Origin: Sinorhizobium fredii USDA 257
Lineage (GTDB): Bacteria; Pseudomonadota; Alphaproteobacteria; Rhizobiales; Rhizobiaceae
DNA: 64,000 nucleotides
Assembly (NCBI RefSeq): GCF_000265205.3
Contig: NC_018000.1
Span: 4,216,001 to 4,280,000 of the forward strand
Direction of reading: 5' to 3'
The position numbers were made by a program, and so were the translations under genes. Below, one piece after another: positions 7,677-64,000 of the stretch; within the stretch, counting starts at the first letter, position 1; every line of letters starts with the position of its first letter. A model generated the notes under the pieces. The model was not told the DNA's origin. It saw only the letters and a program-made list of their open reading frames with translations, and made no database searches.

Positions 7677-7910
7677 CTAACGCCAGAACGGAATGGCGGC
7701 CTCTCGCCGGGCCTCCGCCTCGGTGACGCCGATATCCTTGAGCTGGTCGACGCTCAAATCGCCAAGCTCCAGACGGCTGCGCCTCTTGGCGGCTAAAGTG
7801 CAATAGGCACGCCAGAGCCGAGCCAGAATATTCTCGTCACCAGGCGAAGCCCGAAACGCGGAGTTCTTGGTCCTTTGCGGTGACAATCGGATTGTATCAA
7901 TTGTACTCAT
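7677..7910 (-). CDS. DUF1127 domain small protein
   Basis: A 77-residue protein whose C-terminal 45 residues are a typical DUF1127 domain (LWRAYCTLAAKRRSRLELGDL, then LSVDQLKDIGVTEAEARREA and FWR). Small Arg-rich DUF1127 proteins in alphaproteobacteria act as RNA-binding or phosphate/stress-related factors in the few studied cases. Nothing in this sequence fixes the role here. Divergent from the MocR-type regulator with an 82-bp shared upstream region, so it is a natural candidate target. Confidence 0.85.
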   Translation of the reverse strand: MSTIDTIRLSPQRTKNSAFRASPGDENILARLWRAYCTLAAKRRSRLELGDLSVDQLKDIGVTEAEARREAAIPFWR

Positions 7911-59902: not shown

Positions 59903-61768
59903 CTATTCCGCCGCCTCTTCCTGCGCGATGAAACCGCCGGACTGGCGCGCCCAGAGTTCAGCATAGAGGCCGCCGCGCGCGATCAGCTCGGCGTGGCTGC
60001 CATCCTCGACGATATGTCCTCGGTCCATCACGACCAGACGGTCAAGTGCGGCGATCGTCGATAACCTGTGAGCGATCGCGAGCACCGTCTTGCCCTGCAT
60101 CAGTCGCTCCAGATTGGTCTGGATCGCTGCCTCCACTTCCGAATCGAGCGCCGAGGTCGCCTCGTCGAGAACGAGAATGGGCGCGTCCTTGAGCATCACC
60201 CGGGCGATCGCAATCCTCTGCCGCTGGCCGCCGGAGAGCTTGACGCCCCGTTCGCCGACATGGGCGTCGAAGCCCCTGCGGCCGCGCTGATCCTGCAGAC
60301 CGACGATGAAGTCATAGGCTTCCGCCTTGCGCGCCGCTTCCGTGAGCTGTTCGTCCGTCGCACCGGGCCGGCCGAAGAGAATATTGTCGCGGATCGATCG
60401 ATGCAGAAGCGACGTGTCCTGGCTGACCATGCCGATCTGGGCGCGAAGCGATTCCTGCCGGACCGTGGCGATATCCTGGCCGTCGATCAGAATCCGGCCG
60501 CCCTCGAGATCGTAGAAGCGCAGCAGCAGATTGACCAACGTCGACTTGCCGGCACCGGAGCGGCCGACGATGCCGACCTTTTCACCGGGGCGGATGGTGA
60601 GAGAAAAATCATCGATGACGCCGCCACCCTTGCCGTAGTGAAACGCCACCTGCTCAAAACGGATCTCTGGCCGGTTTACGGTCAGATCAGGCGCGCCGGG
60701 CCGATCGACGAGGCCGATCGATTGGGAGACCAGCTCGGCCGAATTCTGGATCGTGCCGATATTGCGCATGATGGCGTTGAATTGCGACATCATCCGCCCG
60801 AGCAGCATGTTGAGGCGCAGCACCAGCGCCAGCGTGAAGGCGACCGCACCCGAGCTGACCGCCCCTGCAAGCCATAGGTGAACCGCGTAGACGGCAATCG
60901 CCGCGATCATCATCCCCGAAAGTAAGGCCTGCGACGCCCGCACGCCCGTCAGAAGCCGGGTAAATGGGATGACCGCCCCTTGGAAGCGGTCGAAGCCCGC
61001 GCGGATGTAGCGATCATTCTCCTCGTCGCTGCCGAAGAGCTTGAGCGTCTGGATGTTCGAATAGGCATCGACCATGCGGCCGTTCAGCATCGAGGCCATT
61101 TCCGCGGTGTCGCGGGCGTGCTTGCGCACGCGCGGAACGAAATAGCGGGCAAGCGAAAGGAAGACAACGATCCAGAAGGCCACCATCGCCGCCAGCCGCC
61201 AGTCGAGCTGGGCGATCAGCGCCATGGTCGACGCAGTATAGATGAGGATGAACCAGATGACCTGCAGCAAGGATACGATCAGGTCGCTCGTCGCTTGCGC
61301 GCCCGACCAGACCTTGGTGACGATGCGACCGGAAAAGTCGTTCTGAAAGAAGGTGAGCGATTGCCGGGCTACGTAGACATAGGTCTGCCAGCGCACCAGG
61401 TTGAGAAAGCCGGTGATGATCGCCTGCTCCTCGACCAGCGCCGCGAGCGCCACGGCCAGGAAACGGAACACCAGCACCGTCAGCAGCATGAAGAGCAGCT
61501 CCGGGCCGTTGGAGGCGATCAATCCGCTCCAGCCATCCTGCGGCCGGATGGTGTCGAGCACGTCGACCAGCCGGCCGACGAAATAGAACAGTCCCGCTTC
61601 GAGCATGGCGACCAGCCCGCCGAGCGCCGCCATGGCGAGGAACGGACCTTTCGCCTGACTTGCATAGAACCAGGCGAAGCCCCAGAGCGACCTTGGCGGC
61701 TGCAGCCGATCGCGCGGCGCGAAGGGGCTGATCCAATTCTCGAAGATGGTGACGATGGCGCGCAGCAT
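59903..61768 (-). CDS. ABC exporter half-transporter (second of pair)
   Basis: A 621-residue fused transmembrane/ATPase protein of the MsbA/multidrug type. Six helices precede a nucleotide-binding domain with Walker A VGRSGAGKSTLVNLL, Q-loop MVSQDTSLLHRSI, signature VKLSGGQRQRIAI, Walker B VLDEATSALDSE with intact Glu, and H-loop AIAHRLS. It is a paralogue of the gene 103 bp upstream and shares its tail (SGGFIA ... EEAAE). Both ATPase sites look catalytic, so homodimers or a heterodimer are possible. Substrate unknown. Confidence 0.9.
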   Translation of the reverse strand: MLRAIVTIFENWISPFAPRDRLQPPRSLWGFAWFYASQAKGPFLAMAALGGLVAMLEAGLFYFVGRLVDVLDTIRPQDGWSGLIASNGPELLFMLLTVLVFRFLAVALAALVEEQAIITGFLNLVRWQTYVYVARQSLTFFQNDFSGRIVTKVWSGAQATSDLIVSLLQVIWFILIYTASTMALIAQLDWRLAAMVAFWIVVFLSLARYFVPRVRKHARDTAEMASMLNGRMVDAYSNIQTLKLFGSDEENDRYIRAGFDRFQGAVIPFTRLLTGVRASQALLSGMMIAAIAVYAVHLWLAGAVSSGAVAFTLALVLRLNMLLGRMMSQFNAIMRNIGTIQNSAELVSQSIGLVDRPGAPDLTVNRPEIRFEQVAFHYGKGGGVIDDFSLTIRPGEKVGIVGRSGAGKSTLVNLLLRFYDLEGGRILIDGQDIATVRQESLRAQIGMVSQDTSLLHRSIRDNILFGRPGATDEQLTEAARKAEAYDFIVGLQDQRGRRGFDAHVGERGVKLSGGQRQRIAIARVMLKDAPILVLDEATSALDSEVEAAIQTNLERLMQGKTVLAIAHRLSTIAALDRLVVMDRGHIVEDGSHAELIARGGLYAELWARQSGGFIAQEEAAE

Positions 61769-61857: not shown

Positions 61858-61889
61858 GAGGAGGCGGCGGATTACTCCGCCGCCTCCTC
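61858..61889. other. 14-bp perfect hairpin across a stop codon
   Basis: GAGGAGGCGGCGGA (61858-61871) pairs exactly with TCCGCCGCCTCCTC (61876-61889) around a 4-base loop that holds the TAA stop (minus strand) of the first ABC exporter gene. No T run follows, so this is not a classical terminator. It could be an mRNA stabiliser, or an incidental result of the Glu/Ala-rich tail. Confidence 0.6.
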
Positions 61890-63725
61890 CTTTTCGACAT
61901 CGTCGGCGATGAAGCCGCCGGACTGGCGCGACCAGAGATCGGCGTAGAGCCCACCCTTCGCAACGAGCTCGGCATGCGAGCCGGTCTCGACGACCCGCCC
62001 CGCCTCGAGGACGACCAGGCGGTCCATTTCGGTCAGCGTCGACAGGCGGTGCGCGATGGCGATCACCGTCTTCCCGGCCATCAGGGCGAAGAGGTTCTCC
62101 TGGATCGCCGCCTCCACTTCGGAATCGAGCGCCGAGGTTGCCTCGTCGAGAATAAGGATCGGCGCGTCCTTGAGGAAGACACGGGCGATCGCAATTCTCT
62201 GCCGCTGGCCGCCCGAGAGCTTCACACCCCGTTCGCCGACCTGCGCGTCGAGCCCTTGCCTGCCCAGGTTGTCCTCGAGCGCCTGGATGAACTCCCAGGC
62301 GTTGGCTTTCTTGGCTGCGGCGATGACCTGCGCGTCGGTTGCCTCCGGGTGCCCATAGGCGATGTTGTCGCGAATGGAGCGATGCAGGAGCGATGTATCC
62401 TGCGTCACGACGCCGATCTGCGAGCGCAGGCTGTCCTGGCTGACGGCTGAAATATCCTTGCCGTCGATCCGGATCACGCCGTCCTCGAGATCGTAGAAGC
62501 GCAGCAGCAGGTTCATCAGCGTCGTTTTGCCGGCACCCGAGCGGCCGACCAGGCCGATCTTCTCGCCGGGACGGATGTCGAGCGACAGCCGATCGATGAC
62601 GCCTTTTGCCTTGCCGTAATGGAAGCGGATATCCTCGAAACGGATCGCCCCCTTCTCGGCCGTCAGCGCTACGGCATCCGGCTGATCGACGATGTCGTGC
62701 GCCTTGGTCATCATTCCCATGCCGTCATAGACCGTCCCGATATTCTCGAAAAGCGCCGAGACTTCCCACATGATCCACTGCGACATCCCGTTGATGCGCA
62801 TGGCAAGACCGATCGCAACGGCGATTGCTCCGACCGAGATCGCGCTGGTGAGCCAGAGGTAGATCCCAAGCGAGCCGACAGCGAAGAGCGCCACGCAATT
62901 GTTCGTGTAGACGCATATGTGGAACAGCGTGACCTTGCGCATCTGCCGGTAGACGGTGTCGAGAAACTCCTCCATACCGGCGCGCGCATAGGTTTCCTCC
63001 CGCCCGGCATGCGAGAAGAGCTTCACCGTGCTGATATTGGTGTAGCTGTCGACGATGCGTCCCGTCATCATCGAACGGGCATCCGCCTGCTCCTTGGAGA
63101 TCTTCTGCAGGCGCGGCACAAAGGTGGTTACGATCACGACATAGATGACCAGCCAGATGGCAAGCGGCGCGACGAGCCGCAAGTCGGCAGCCGCGACGAC
63201 GACCAGCATCGTCGTGAAATAGCTCACCACATAGACGAAGACGTCGAGGATCTTCATTACCGTTTCGCGCACGGCGAGCGACGTCTGCATCACCTTCGTG
63301 GCGACGCGACCGGCGAACTCGTTGGCGAAGAAGGTCATGCTCTGCCGAAGCAGATACCGGTGCATCTGCCAGCGCGCCATCATCGGATAGTTGCCGAGCA
63401 GCACCTGATGCATGATGAATGAATCGAGCGCCACGAGGGCCGGCAAGCCGATGAGGATCAAGGCTGCCATCCAGGCAAGCCTGCCCCCCTCGGTGGCGAG
63501 GAAGGTTTCACGCTCGGCATTGGACAGCCAGTCGACGACGTTGCCGAGGAACTGGAACAGCGCCACCTCGCCGATCGCGATCAGCATGGTGCAGACTGCC
63601 ATGATGAGCAGCCAAGGCGCCGCGGGCCTGGTGTAGTGCCAGCAGAAGGCAAAGAGGCCCTTCGGTGGAAGCGTCGGCTCCTCCAGCGGGTAGGGATTGA
63701 GGCGGGATTCAAACCAGCCGAACAT
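61872..63725 (-). CDS. ABC exporter half-transporter (first of pair)
   Basis: A 617-residue exporter protein (MFGWFESRLNPYPLEEPTLP). Six helices are followed by an ATPase with Walker A VGRSGAGKTTLMNLL, Q-loop VVTQDTSLLHRSI, signature VKLSGGQRQRIAI, Walker B ILDEATSALDSE and AIAHRLSTL. It is followed by its paralogue 103 bp later, so the two are probably one transcript. Its start codon lies behind a hairpin (63734-63754) that covers the Shine-Dalgarno, and further upstream are paired hairpins and a leader ORF. These suggest that expression is induced when translation of the leader changes. Confidence 0.9.
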   Translation of the reverse strand: MFGWFESRLNPYPLEEPTLPPKGLFAFCWHYTRPAAPWLLIMAVCTMLIAIGEVALFQFLGNVVDWLSNAERETFLATEGGRLAWMAALILIGLPALVALDSFIMHQVLLGNYPMMARWQMHRYLLRQSMTFFANEFAGRVATKVMQTSLAVRETVMKILDVFVYVVSYFTTMLVVVAAADLRLVAPLAIWLVIYVVIVTTFVPRLQKISKEQADARSMMTGRIVDSYTNISTVKLFSHAGREETYARAGMEEFLDTVYRQMRKVTLFHICVYTNNCVALFAVGSLGIYLWLTSAISVGAIAVAIGLAMRINGMSQWIMWEVSALFENIGTVYDGMGMMTKAHDIVDQPDAVALTAEKGAIRFEDIRFHYGKAKGVIDRLSLDIRPGEKIGLVGRSGAGKTTLMNLLLRFYDLEDGVIRIDGKDISAVSQDSLRSQIGVVTQDTSLLHRSIRDNIAYGHPEATDAQVIAAAKKANAWEFIQALEDNLGRQGLDAQVGERGVKLSGGQRQRIAIARVFLKDAPILILDEATSALDSEVEAAIQENLFALMAGKTVIAIAHRLSTLTEMDRLVVLEAGRVVETGSHAELVAKGGLYADLWSRQSGGFIADDVEKEEAAE

Positions 63726-63733
63726 TAATTAGC

Positions 63734-63754
63734 TCCTTCAGATATTTTGAAGGA
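63734..63754 (-). promoter_or_regulatory. Shine-Dalgarno-sequestering hairpin of the ABC exporter gene
   Basis: On the mRNA TCCTTCA (63754-63748) pairs with TGAAGGA (63740-63734) around a 7-base loop AAATATC. The right arm carries the AAGGAG ribosome-binding site of the exporter gene, 8 bases before its ATG at 63725, so folding would block initiation. A GCGGG-GCGA-CCCGC hairpin precedes it (63757-63770). Confidence 0.65.
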
Positions 63755-63796
63755 AGGCGGGTCGCCCCGCATTCTTTATCTTCGGAAAACTCGAAA

Positions 63797-63843
63797 CCGG
63801 AGGGGATGCCCCGAATCGAGCTGCGCCCTCCGGGAAACCGGAG
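63797..63843 (-). promoter_or_regulatory. mutually exclusive hairpins in the exporter leader
   Basis: On the mRNA, segment 1 is CTCCGG (63843-63838), segment 2 is CCGGAGGG (63833-63826) and segment 3 is CCCTCCGG (63804-63797). Segment 2 can pair with 1 (loop TTTC) or with 3 but not with both. That is the switch geometry of attenuators. Confidence 0.55.
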
Positions 63844-63885
63844 CACGCGTCATTCGATCGACAGAATGAAAGGGCGCGGAACCGG

Positions 63886-63942
63886 TCAGGCCTGGAACGG
63901 CCAGGCTACTTGCGGGAGGCGGGTCAACATCAGAATGGTCAT
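63886..63942 (-). CDS. 18-codon leader peptide of the ABC exporter genes
   Basis: The frame encodes MTILMLTRLPQVAWPFQA and a stop. A GGAGG ribosome-binding site lies five bases before its ATG. A GCCTGG-CCGTT-CCAGGC hairpin (63890-63906) falls inside the last codons, where a moving ribosome would melt it. A second ATG four bases upstream opens another frame of 56 codons but is too close to the GGAGG. The distance to the exporter ATG is about 160 nt. No coding function is expected beyond regulation; translation is inferred from the site, not shown. Confidence 0.5.
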   Translation of the reverse strand: MTILMLTRLPQVAWPFQA

Positions 63943-64000
63943 GCATGCCTCCGTCGGTTCGCGTTGAAGAGGATTGAGCTTTACCTCTATTCCCGCCATT

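Follow-up and report, generated by a model that had tools for sequence, protein, structure and literature searches.

What is the role of a short open reading frame (ORF) that stands, with its own Shine-Dalgarno sequence (SD) and a series of hairpins, in front of two ABC exporter genes? The question arises at the end of a 64,000-nucleotide (nt) stretch of the Sinorhizobium fredii USDA 257 genome (NC_018000.1, positions 4,216,001 to 4,280,000; hereafter the window). Its minus strand carries the structured leader of exporter A at the window end, between exporter A and a divergent, trmL-like gene on the other side. A preliminary description had listed a GGAGG site (SD1), an 18-codon leader ORF with a hairpin at its end, segments with alternative pairings, a GC hairpin and a hairpin over the exporter's own SD (SD2; AAGGAG, 63738-63733, minus strand). 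Direct reading finds all of them in place. The leader is probably, and we say so with moderate confidence, an attenuator in which an upstream ORF (uORF) senses translational status. By analogy it would be of the kind described for duf1127_1 of Sinorhizobium meliloti, probably Rho-type, with an extra brake at SD2 in Ensifer.

The anatomy recurs throughout the genus. In an alignment of 37 distinct Ensifer/Sinorhizobium leader sequences, SD1, the ATG, the position of the stop codon and the stems are all retained, and 96.0% of 1,434 stem cells are paired, compared with 35.6-53.4% when the stem partners are slid by 1-3 columns. The elements listed in the preliminary description therefore exceed chance. 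Double-sided changes occur in 13 cells versus 6.5 in the shuffles used as covariation control, but neither the pairs altered on both sides (2 versus 2.8) nor the pair types (15 versus 16.0) outnumber those in shuffles. Because the double changes are few and confined to two pairs, the genus alone provides little proof of covariation.

A wider sample comprised 144 loci (80 named loci, the best 80 of a longer list, 32 from the same genus and 32 from the GTDB family), all with an exporter A at least 68% identical to that of the window. We refer to it as Rhizobiaceae in the strict sense, a label of our own; clade lists were made by hand, from record titles and by eye. A leader ORF, defined as an ATG ORF of 10-45 codons with an SD, 145-320 nt upstream of the exporter, is present in 139 of the 144 loci; the rule found none in L155, L158, L160, L161 and L165. 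Removal of redundancy left 124 distinct loci, among them 43 diverse loci less than 72% alike. The leader ORF has 16-22 codons in 120 of the 124 and ends in TGA (84), TAG (32) or TAA (8). With a looser scan, candidate leaders appear in 9 of 56 more distant loci (L167-L222, 56-68% identity, L169 having hardly any DNA upstream) and in 3 of 19 taken from further genomes of the family and order (L116-L134, two with short upstream DNA). Some of these distant candidates may be genuine, L176 among them.

Gap runs fall in multiples of three in 3 of 3 cases within the leader ORF, compared with 11 of 66 on its 3' side. The peptide is variable, with 103 different peptides in the 124 loci and a ratio of nonsynonymous to synonymous change (pN/pS) that in three clades is 0.46, 0.74 and 0.90. 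What is retained is the frame, and hardly the peptide; the ORF behaves as coding and is very probably translated. Amino-acid attenuation of the trp type was considered and rejected: no residue occurs more than five times per leader in the 43 diverse loci, and arginine, leucine, alanine and proline are mixed. A second frame (63776-63946, minus strand), whose ATG lies 4 nt upstream of that of the leader and which spans 56 codons, overlaps the leader ORF and the hairpins. It was discarded as the main leader in view of its 1-nt SD spacing, its variable end and length (31-68 amino acids) and its presence in 30 of the 37 Ensifer rows and absence from 7.

The family-wide sample reveals a helix, P0, that encloses the whole leader ORF. 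Bases immediately 5' of SD1 pair with bases at or beyond the stop codon, as in CGCGAACCG:CGGTTCCGCG in the window. In a mate-swap test, in which the pairing strands were exchanged among the 43 diverse loci in 20,000 permutations, true mates score 16.2 and swapped mates 13.35 (z 7.34), and no permutation reaches the true value. Control regions give z 0.47 and 1.17, and wider P0 strands z 5.46. The paired letters change from clade to clade: AACACC:GGTGTT or AACGCC:GGCGTT in Agrobacterium (L108, L110), CACGCA:TGCGTG in Ciceribacter (L085), ACTTGCGAA:TTCGCAAGT in L067 and, just before the stop, ATCGCCA:TGGCGAT in L048. The P0 score is at least 16 in 23 of the 43 loci. The preliminary description had proposed aligning relatives to look for conserved leader codons and compensatory changes in the stems. 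Stems and frame are kept, and P0 covaries across the family; the peptide is hardly retained, and covariation within the genus is thin.

In a covariation scan over 431 window pairs P0 ranks first (z 4.5), followed by a hairpin termed PE (4.1) and by the pairing of SD1 with the leader codons, P1 (3.7); two of the pairs exceed z 4. The B:C hairpin downstream of the ORF reaches z 2.7 in the scan and z 3.5 in a dedicated mate-swap test (7/20,000). PE lies just 5' of the exporter SD, about 82 to 22 nt before the gene, in many non-Ensifer loci (L054, L067 and others), with CGACCACC:GGTGGTCG and CGTTCGGTTCCC:GGGAGCCGAAACG as examples; its dedicated test gives z 3.8 when anchored on the leader stop and z 2.4 when anchored on the gene. 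Weaker covariation (z 2.8 in the scan, 43 loci) links strand A, from stop-4 to stop+12, with stop+84 to stop+100. This downstream partner is possibly an alternative to P0, or chance.

Within the domain closed by P0, SD1 pairs with codons 8-10 of its own ORF (P1; GGAGGC:GCCTCC). All P1 cells are paired in the 37 genus rows, in which 19 one-sided changes from G-C to G-U and no broken cells occur. The best SD1 helix lies at offset +22 in 74 of the 124 loci. P1 is retained despite amino acid changes in L042 and L083, and in L048 and L051 it takes the form of GGGAGCGC with GCGCTCTC. Single-locus tests of SD1 against the leader, by RNAduplex or a simple helix score, are weakly significant (median p 0.16; observed 16.9 versus 14.5) because leaders are GC-rich, and tests of position and covariation were used instead. 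In the clade of L093, L095, L100, L101, L107 and L109 the best SD1 helix lies off the usual place, and the leader start falls within a palindrome, CCATCGATGG. The stop codon is followed by a tract poor in G. Across the family it averages 14-16% G and a C/G ratio of 2.2 at stop+10 to stop+30; over stop+1 to stop+45, C exceeds G in 39 of 43 loci, with family means of 32% C and 20% G.

This arrangement closely resembles a known switch. According to Kothe et al. 2025 (PMC12218461), the duf1127_1 transcript starts 30 nt before a 29-amino-acid uORF and 279 nt before the gene. The SD of this uORF is predicted to pair with C-rich codons, and a 45-nt C-rich element (38% C, 18% G) follows its stop. Transcription is attenuated under normal translation, and attenuation is relieved by tetracycline, by chloramphenicol, by loss of the uORF start codon, by synonymous changes in the C-rich codons or by deletion of the post-stop element; the sole candidate intrinsic terminator is inactive. 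We located a counterpart, L236, in a genome labelled S. meliloti (G006), with a 29-amino-acid uORF carrying C11 and A15. Its distance from uORF ATG to gene ATG equals the 279 minus 30 nt of the paper, the 45 nt after its stop contain 40% C and 20% G (38 and 18% in PMC12218461), and its SD, GGAGGCG, pairs with CGCCTCT. The 18-nt duf1127_1 sequence given in the paper has no match within two mismatches in G000, G006 and G031. The counterparts in G006 and G001 therefore differ from the strain of the paper in this stretch, that in G006 also at codon 17.

The start of the L236 uORF aligns with the exporter leaders (L067) at a score of 18, compared with 6.6 +/- 1.9 for shuffled sequences (0/300). A second copy, L262 in G001, scores 14 versus 5.7 (1/300; codons alone 2/300). 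The N-termini of the two uORFs, MNPILVFVRLCGG (L262) and MNSNLVFVRLCGG (L236), resemble exporter leader peptides such as MNILLYVRLPAV. From these sequence likenesses it is possible that the duf1127_1 and exporter leaders are of common origin. A pattern search for siblings in four genomes returned 34 sites versus 11 control sites. Among the 30 sites that were read, the exporter leader and the duf1127_1 leader are the sole recurrent ones with a short ORF; the latter is one of four G006 sites that had no assigned locus.

Because the leader so closely resembles the duf1127_1 switch, the exporter is probably switched on by impaired ribosomes, and since that attenuator is relieved by tetracycline, induction by impaired translation is likely. 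During normal translation of the leader, ribosomes would repeatedly break P0 and P1. A termination factor, presumably Rho, would then have access to the C-rich codons and to the G-poor post-stop tract, and transcription would end before the exporter genes. If initiation or early elongation on the leader were impaired, by tetracycline, chloramphenicol or a shortage of ribosomes, the C-rich codons would stay covered, either by a stuck ribosome or by the lock of P1 and P0, and transcription would continue into the exporters. In Ensifer, the SD2 hairpin would act as a second, translational brake. Of the leader control proposed in the preliminary description, a conserved and very probably translated ORF in a structured 5' leader stands, and a response to inhibitors is likely by likeness to duf1127_1; the unmasking of SD2 is not supported, as described below.

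Several observations weigh against a Rho-type uORF attenuator. Even for duf1127_1, Rho is a presumed factor (PMC12218461). Convergence may account for the likeness to duf1127_1, which was judged against letter shuffling as the null, and the shared SD-codon pairing explains part of it (L236, codons alone: 3/300). No duf1127_1 leader was found in the window's own genome, where no uORF with C11 and A15 precedes any of the six DUF1127 genes. P0 scores below 16 in 20 of the 43 diverse loci and below the swapped mean in 4. The dedicated mate-swap test of P1 is weak (z 1.62), because SD1 hardly varies. The C-rich block of the window is short (codons 8-10), and its 45 nt after the stop are moderately G-poor (36% C, 24% G). 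Finally, a crude stem-plus-U-run rule flags 20 of the 124 leaders, which makes an intrinsic terminator component possible in some clades. Beside these points we note a DUF1127 domain within the window itself (7707-7817, minus strand), before which no duf1127_1-like uORF was seen.

The alternative closest to the preliminary description is classical translation attenuation of the ermC type, in which a drug-stalled ribosome on the leader would shift the RNA from 0:A and B:C to A:B and C:E and so free SD2. The pairings for such a shift exist. B (CGCG..CTCCGG) is able to pair with segment A (CCGGTTCCGCG) or, alternatively, to form the B:C hairpin CTCCGG/CCGGAG; inspection by eye shows a further possible partner for C in the strand that masks SD2 in the window (GGAGGGCG:CGCCTTCC); A:B is paired in 96-99% of cells and SD2 is masked in Ensifer in 98.5%; and the PE signal in the scan fits as well. 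The alternative structure, made up of A:B, C:D and the GC hairpin, is paired in 92.9% of cells (84.6% for C:D), yet it shows no covariation beyond shuffles, and we rejected A:B/C:D as the switch. Moreover, ermC-type attenuators need a drug-dependent arrest peptide as well as unmasking of the SD, and 103 different peptides in 124 loci count against an arrest peptide.

To model unmasking, the RNA of 55 loci was refolded with a 31-nt ribosome footprint fixed at each of seven places in the leader, an equilibrium treatment that ignores kinetics. Opening SD2 costs 4.85 kcal/mol on average when no ribosome is present and 4.48-5.00 kcal/mol across the seven positions; the model mean thus hardly depends on ribosome position and gives no support to the proposed opening of the exporter SD by a stalled ribosome. 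The cost falls by at least 1.5 kcal/mol at the best position in 12 of the 55 loci (one of them L098, where SD2 was wrongly picked) and rises by at least 1.5 kcal/mol at the worst in 13; the SD2 pick is wrong or off consensus in L017, L098 and L150. Opening costs 7.7 kcal/mol in the window and on average 6.97 kcal/mol in 14 Ensifer loci, versus 4.13 kcal/mol in the 41 others, where masking is weaker. Unmasking of SD2 as a mechanism shared by the family is not supported by this model, and we regard the ermC-type explanation as unlikely.

Ribosome-dependent transcription attenuation of the bmrB type, in which B:C or C:D would form an intrinsic terminator together with a U-rich stretch, appears improbable. 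A U-rich stretch does follow segment D in many Ensifer rows, for example TTTCGATTTTTC, and the 20 leaders that satisfy the crude stem-plus-U-run rule fit this explanation. Against it, the rule fails in the other 104, the U-run is interrupted, and no intrinsic terminator was seen on the leader strand of the window, the one site listed being on the other strand. In the R. tropici group (L068, L074, L076, L078, L079) the B:C hairpin is followed by CGTTGTTTTAT or a similar sequence, a weak terminator-like site.

We give equally little credence to a leader whose main role is in mRNA stability or as the source of a small RNA, with the uORF shielding the 5' end and no switching. The predicted position of P0 at the extreme 5' end would suit it, and an induced small RNA containing the uORF exists for duf1127_1 (PMC12218461). 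However, covarying structure around the ORF, a conserved tract after the stop and masking of SD1 exceed what stability would need. That a chance ORF and chance hairpins have met in a GC-rich intergenic region is next to impossible: single-locus pairing scores are often unexceptional (P0 p<=0.05 in 44% of 124 loci), but conservation, in-frame indels and the covariation of P0 (0/20,000) refute it.

The coordinates of the leader and the exporters are collected in Table 1. Transcription is predicted to start near 63971, about 29 nt upstream of the leader ATG. A scan for a sigma-70 consensus found no leader promoter; a conserved CTGGCAA/TAGAAC-like pair, read by eye in the 43 loci, precedes TCTTCAACGC.

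Table 1 Features of the exporter leader and the exporter genes in the window.
Feature	Position	Strand	Remarks
-10-like hexamer TAAAGC	63978..63983	-	putative; -35-like CTGGCG just beyond window end
P0 5' strand CGCGAACCG	63955..63963	-	pairs with 63884-63875
Leader Shine-Dalgarno SD1 GGAGG	63948..63952	-	with C63947 forms P1 5' strand; invariant in 37/37 rows
Leader ORF MTILMLTRLPQVAWPFQA	63886..63942	-	18 codons + TGA; ATG at 63942
P1 3' strand GCCTCC	63915..63920	-	codons 8-10 (R-L-P); complementary to SD1; C-rich element 1
P2 hairpin GCCTGG-CCGTT-CCAGGC	63890..63906	-	at leader end; 82% paired; double change in a single pair
P0 3' strand / segment A CGGTTCCGCG	63875..63884	-	immediately 3' of stop
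Pyrimidine-rich tract	63860..63874	-	after stop; candidate second rut-like (Rho utilization) element
B:C hairpin CTCCGG-TTTC-CCGGAG	63828..63843	-	96.3% paired; CG to UA in 5 rows
Segment D CCCTCCGG	63797..63804	-	able to pair with C (63833-63826)
GC hairpin GCGGG-GCGA-CCCGC	63757..63770	-	98.9% paired in Ensifer
SD2-masking hairpin TCCTTCA/TGAAGGA	63734..63754	-	7 bp; 98.5% paired in Ensifer
Exporter A	61872..63725	-	617 aa; MsbA/MDR-type ABC half transporter
Exporter B	59903..61768	-	621 aa; second ABC half transporter

The NCBIfam matches shown for the exporters (the best 25 of 187 for exporter A) all lie below the curated cut-offs, and the PDB relatives of exporter A, judged from the best 60 of 235, belong mainly to the ABCB family; we therefore name no substrate. 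Exporter A belongs to a large protein family, with matches in 60 of 60 genomes searched, its own included. An orthologue with 88-97% identity is present in 31 of 32 other genomes of the genus; in the remaining one, G009, the sole match is of the exporter B kind (48% identity). An Rfam scan of 62500-64000 gave no match up to E 1. A literature search limited to open-licence PMC articles found no publication on the exporter leader, and the terms searched in PMC10117765 gave no mention of the locus in its main text. Should SM2011_RS23660, sORF3 and sORF55 correspond to exporter A and the present leader, with which the type of operon and the two overlapping frames would agree, ribosome profiling and tetracycline induction would already be on record, and P0, the conservation across the family and the link to duf1127_1 would be what is new.

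If the exporter leader is a uORF attenuator of the duf1127_1 kind, control of an MsbA/P-glycoprotein-like exporter pair in this Gram-negative family responds to slowed translation and not to a particular drug, and it uses an RNA design shared with a separate stress gene. The duf1127_1 mechanism, so far single, would become a searchable and comparable family, and the covariation of P0 supplies base pairs that can be tested. More tentatively, and with less than even confidence, we propose a reusable Rhizobiaceae module, composed of a domain closed by P0, a short ORF and an SD locked to its own C-rich codons. It would report in a general way how available ribosomes are, and would do so upstream of at least two unrelated targets, the ABC exporter pair and duf1127_1. 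To the gate P0 would add a new component, a covarying helix which has to be opened by the ribosome both on entry and at the stop codon.

Among known systems, ermC-type leaders share the leader ORF, the alternative hairpins and, in Ensifer, the masked downstream SD; the exporter leader differs in that its peptide is not conserved and SD2 unmasking is not seen in the model mean. The Bacillus subtilis bmrB-bmrCD system, induced by antibiotics that target protein synthesis, likewise has alternative stems and places a leader ORF ahead of two multidrug ABC exporter genes (PMC4191407). Its intrinsic terminator lies inside the coding region, whereas none was seen on the exporter leader strand, in which masking concerns the SD of the leader itself together with the C-rich codons. 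E. coli tnaC and Bordetella bp2923 also carry a uORF with a rut-like sequence inside or after it, and, as presented in PMC12218461, depend on tryptophan- or copper-dependent arrest near the uORF end, whereas the masking in the exporter leader is at the uORF start.

With duf1127_1 the exporter leader has in common a short uORF near the 5' end (the predicted one in the exporter leader), an SD that pairs with its own C-rich codons (at offset +24 in duf1127_1, +22 in the exporter leader), a stretch after the stop with more C than G, a similar leader sequence and a comparable spacing of the uORF and gene start codons (249 nt in the duf1127_1 counterpart, 217 nt to exporter A in the window). The two differ in the target gene and in the length of the uORF (29 codons in duf1127_1, mostly 16-22 in exporter leaders). 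P0 in duf1127_1 is a 5-bp helix of the minimum free energy structure only, TCCGC:GCGGA, ending inside the uORF, and the Ensifer exporter leaders carry the SD2 hairpin as an addition to the shared design.

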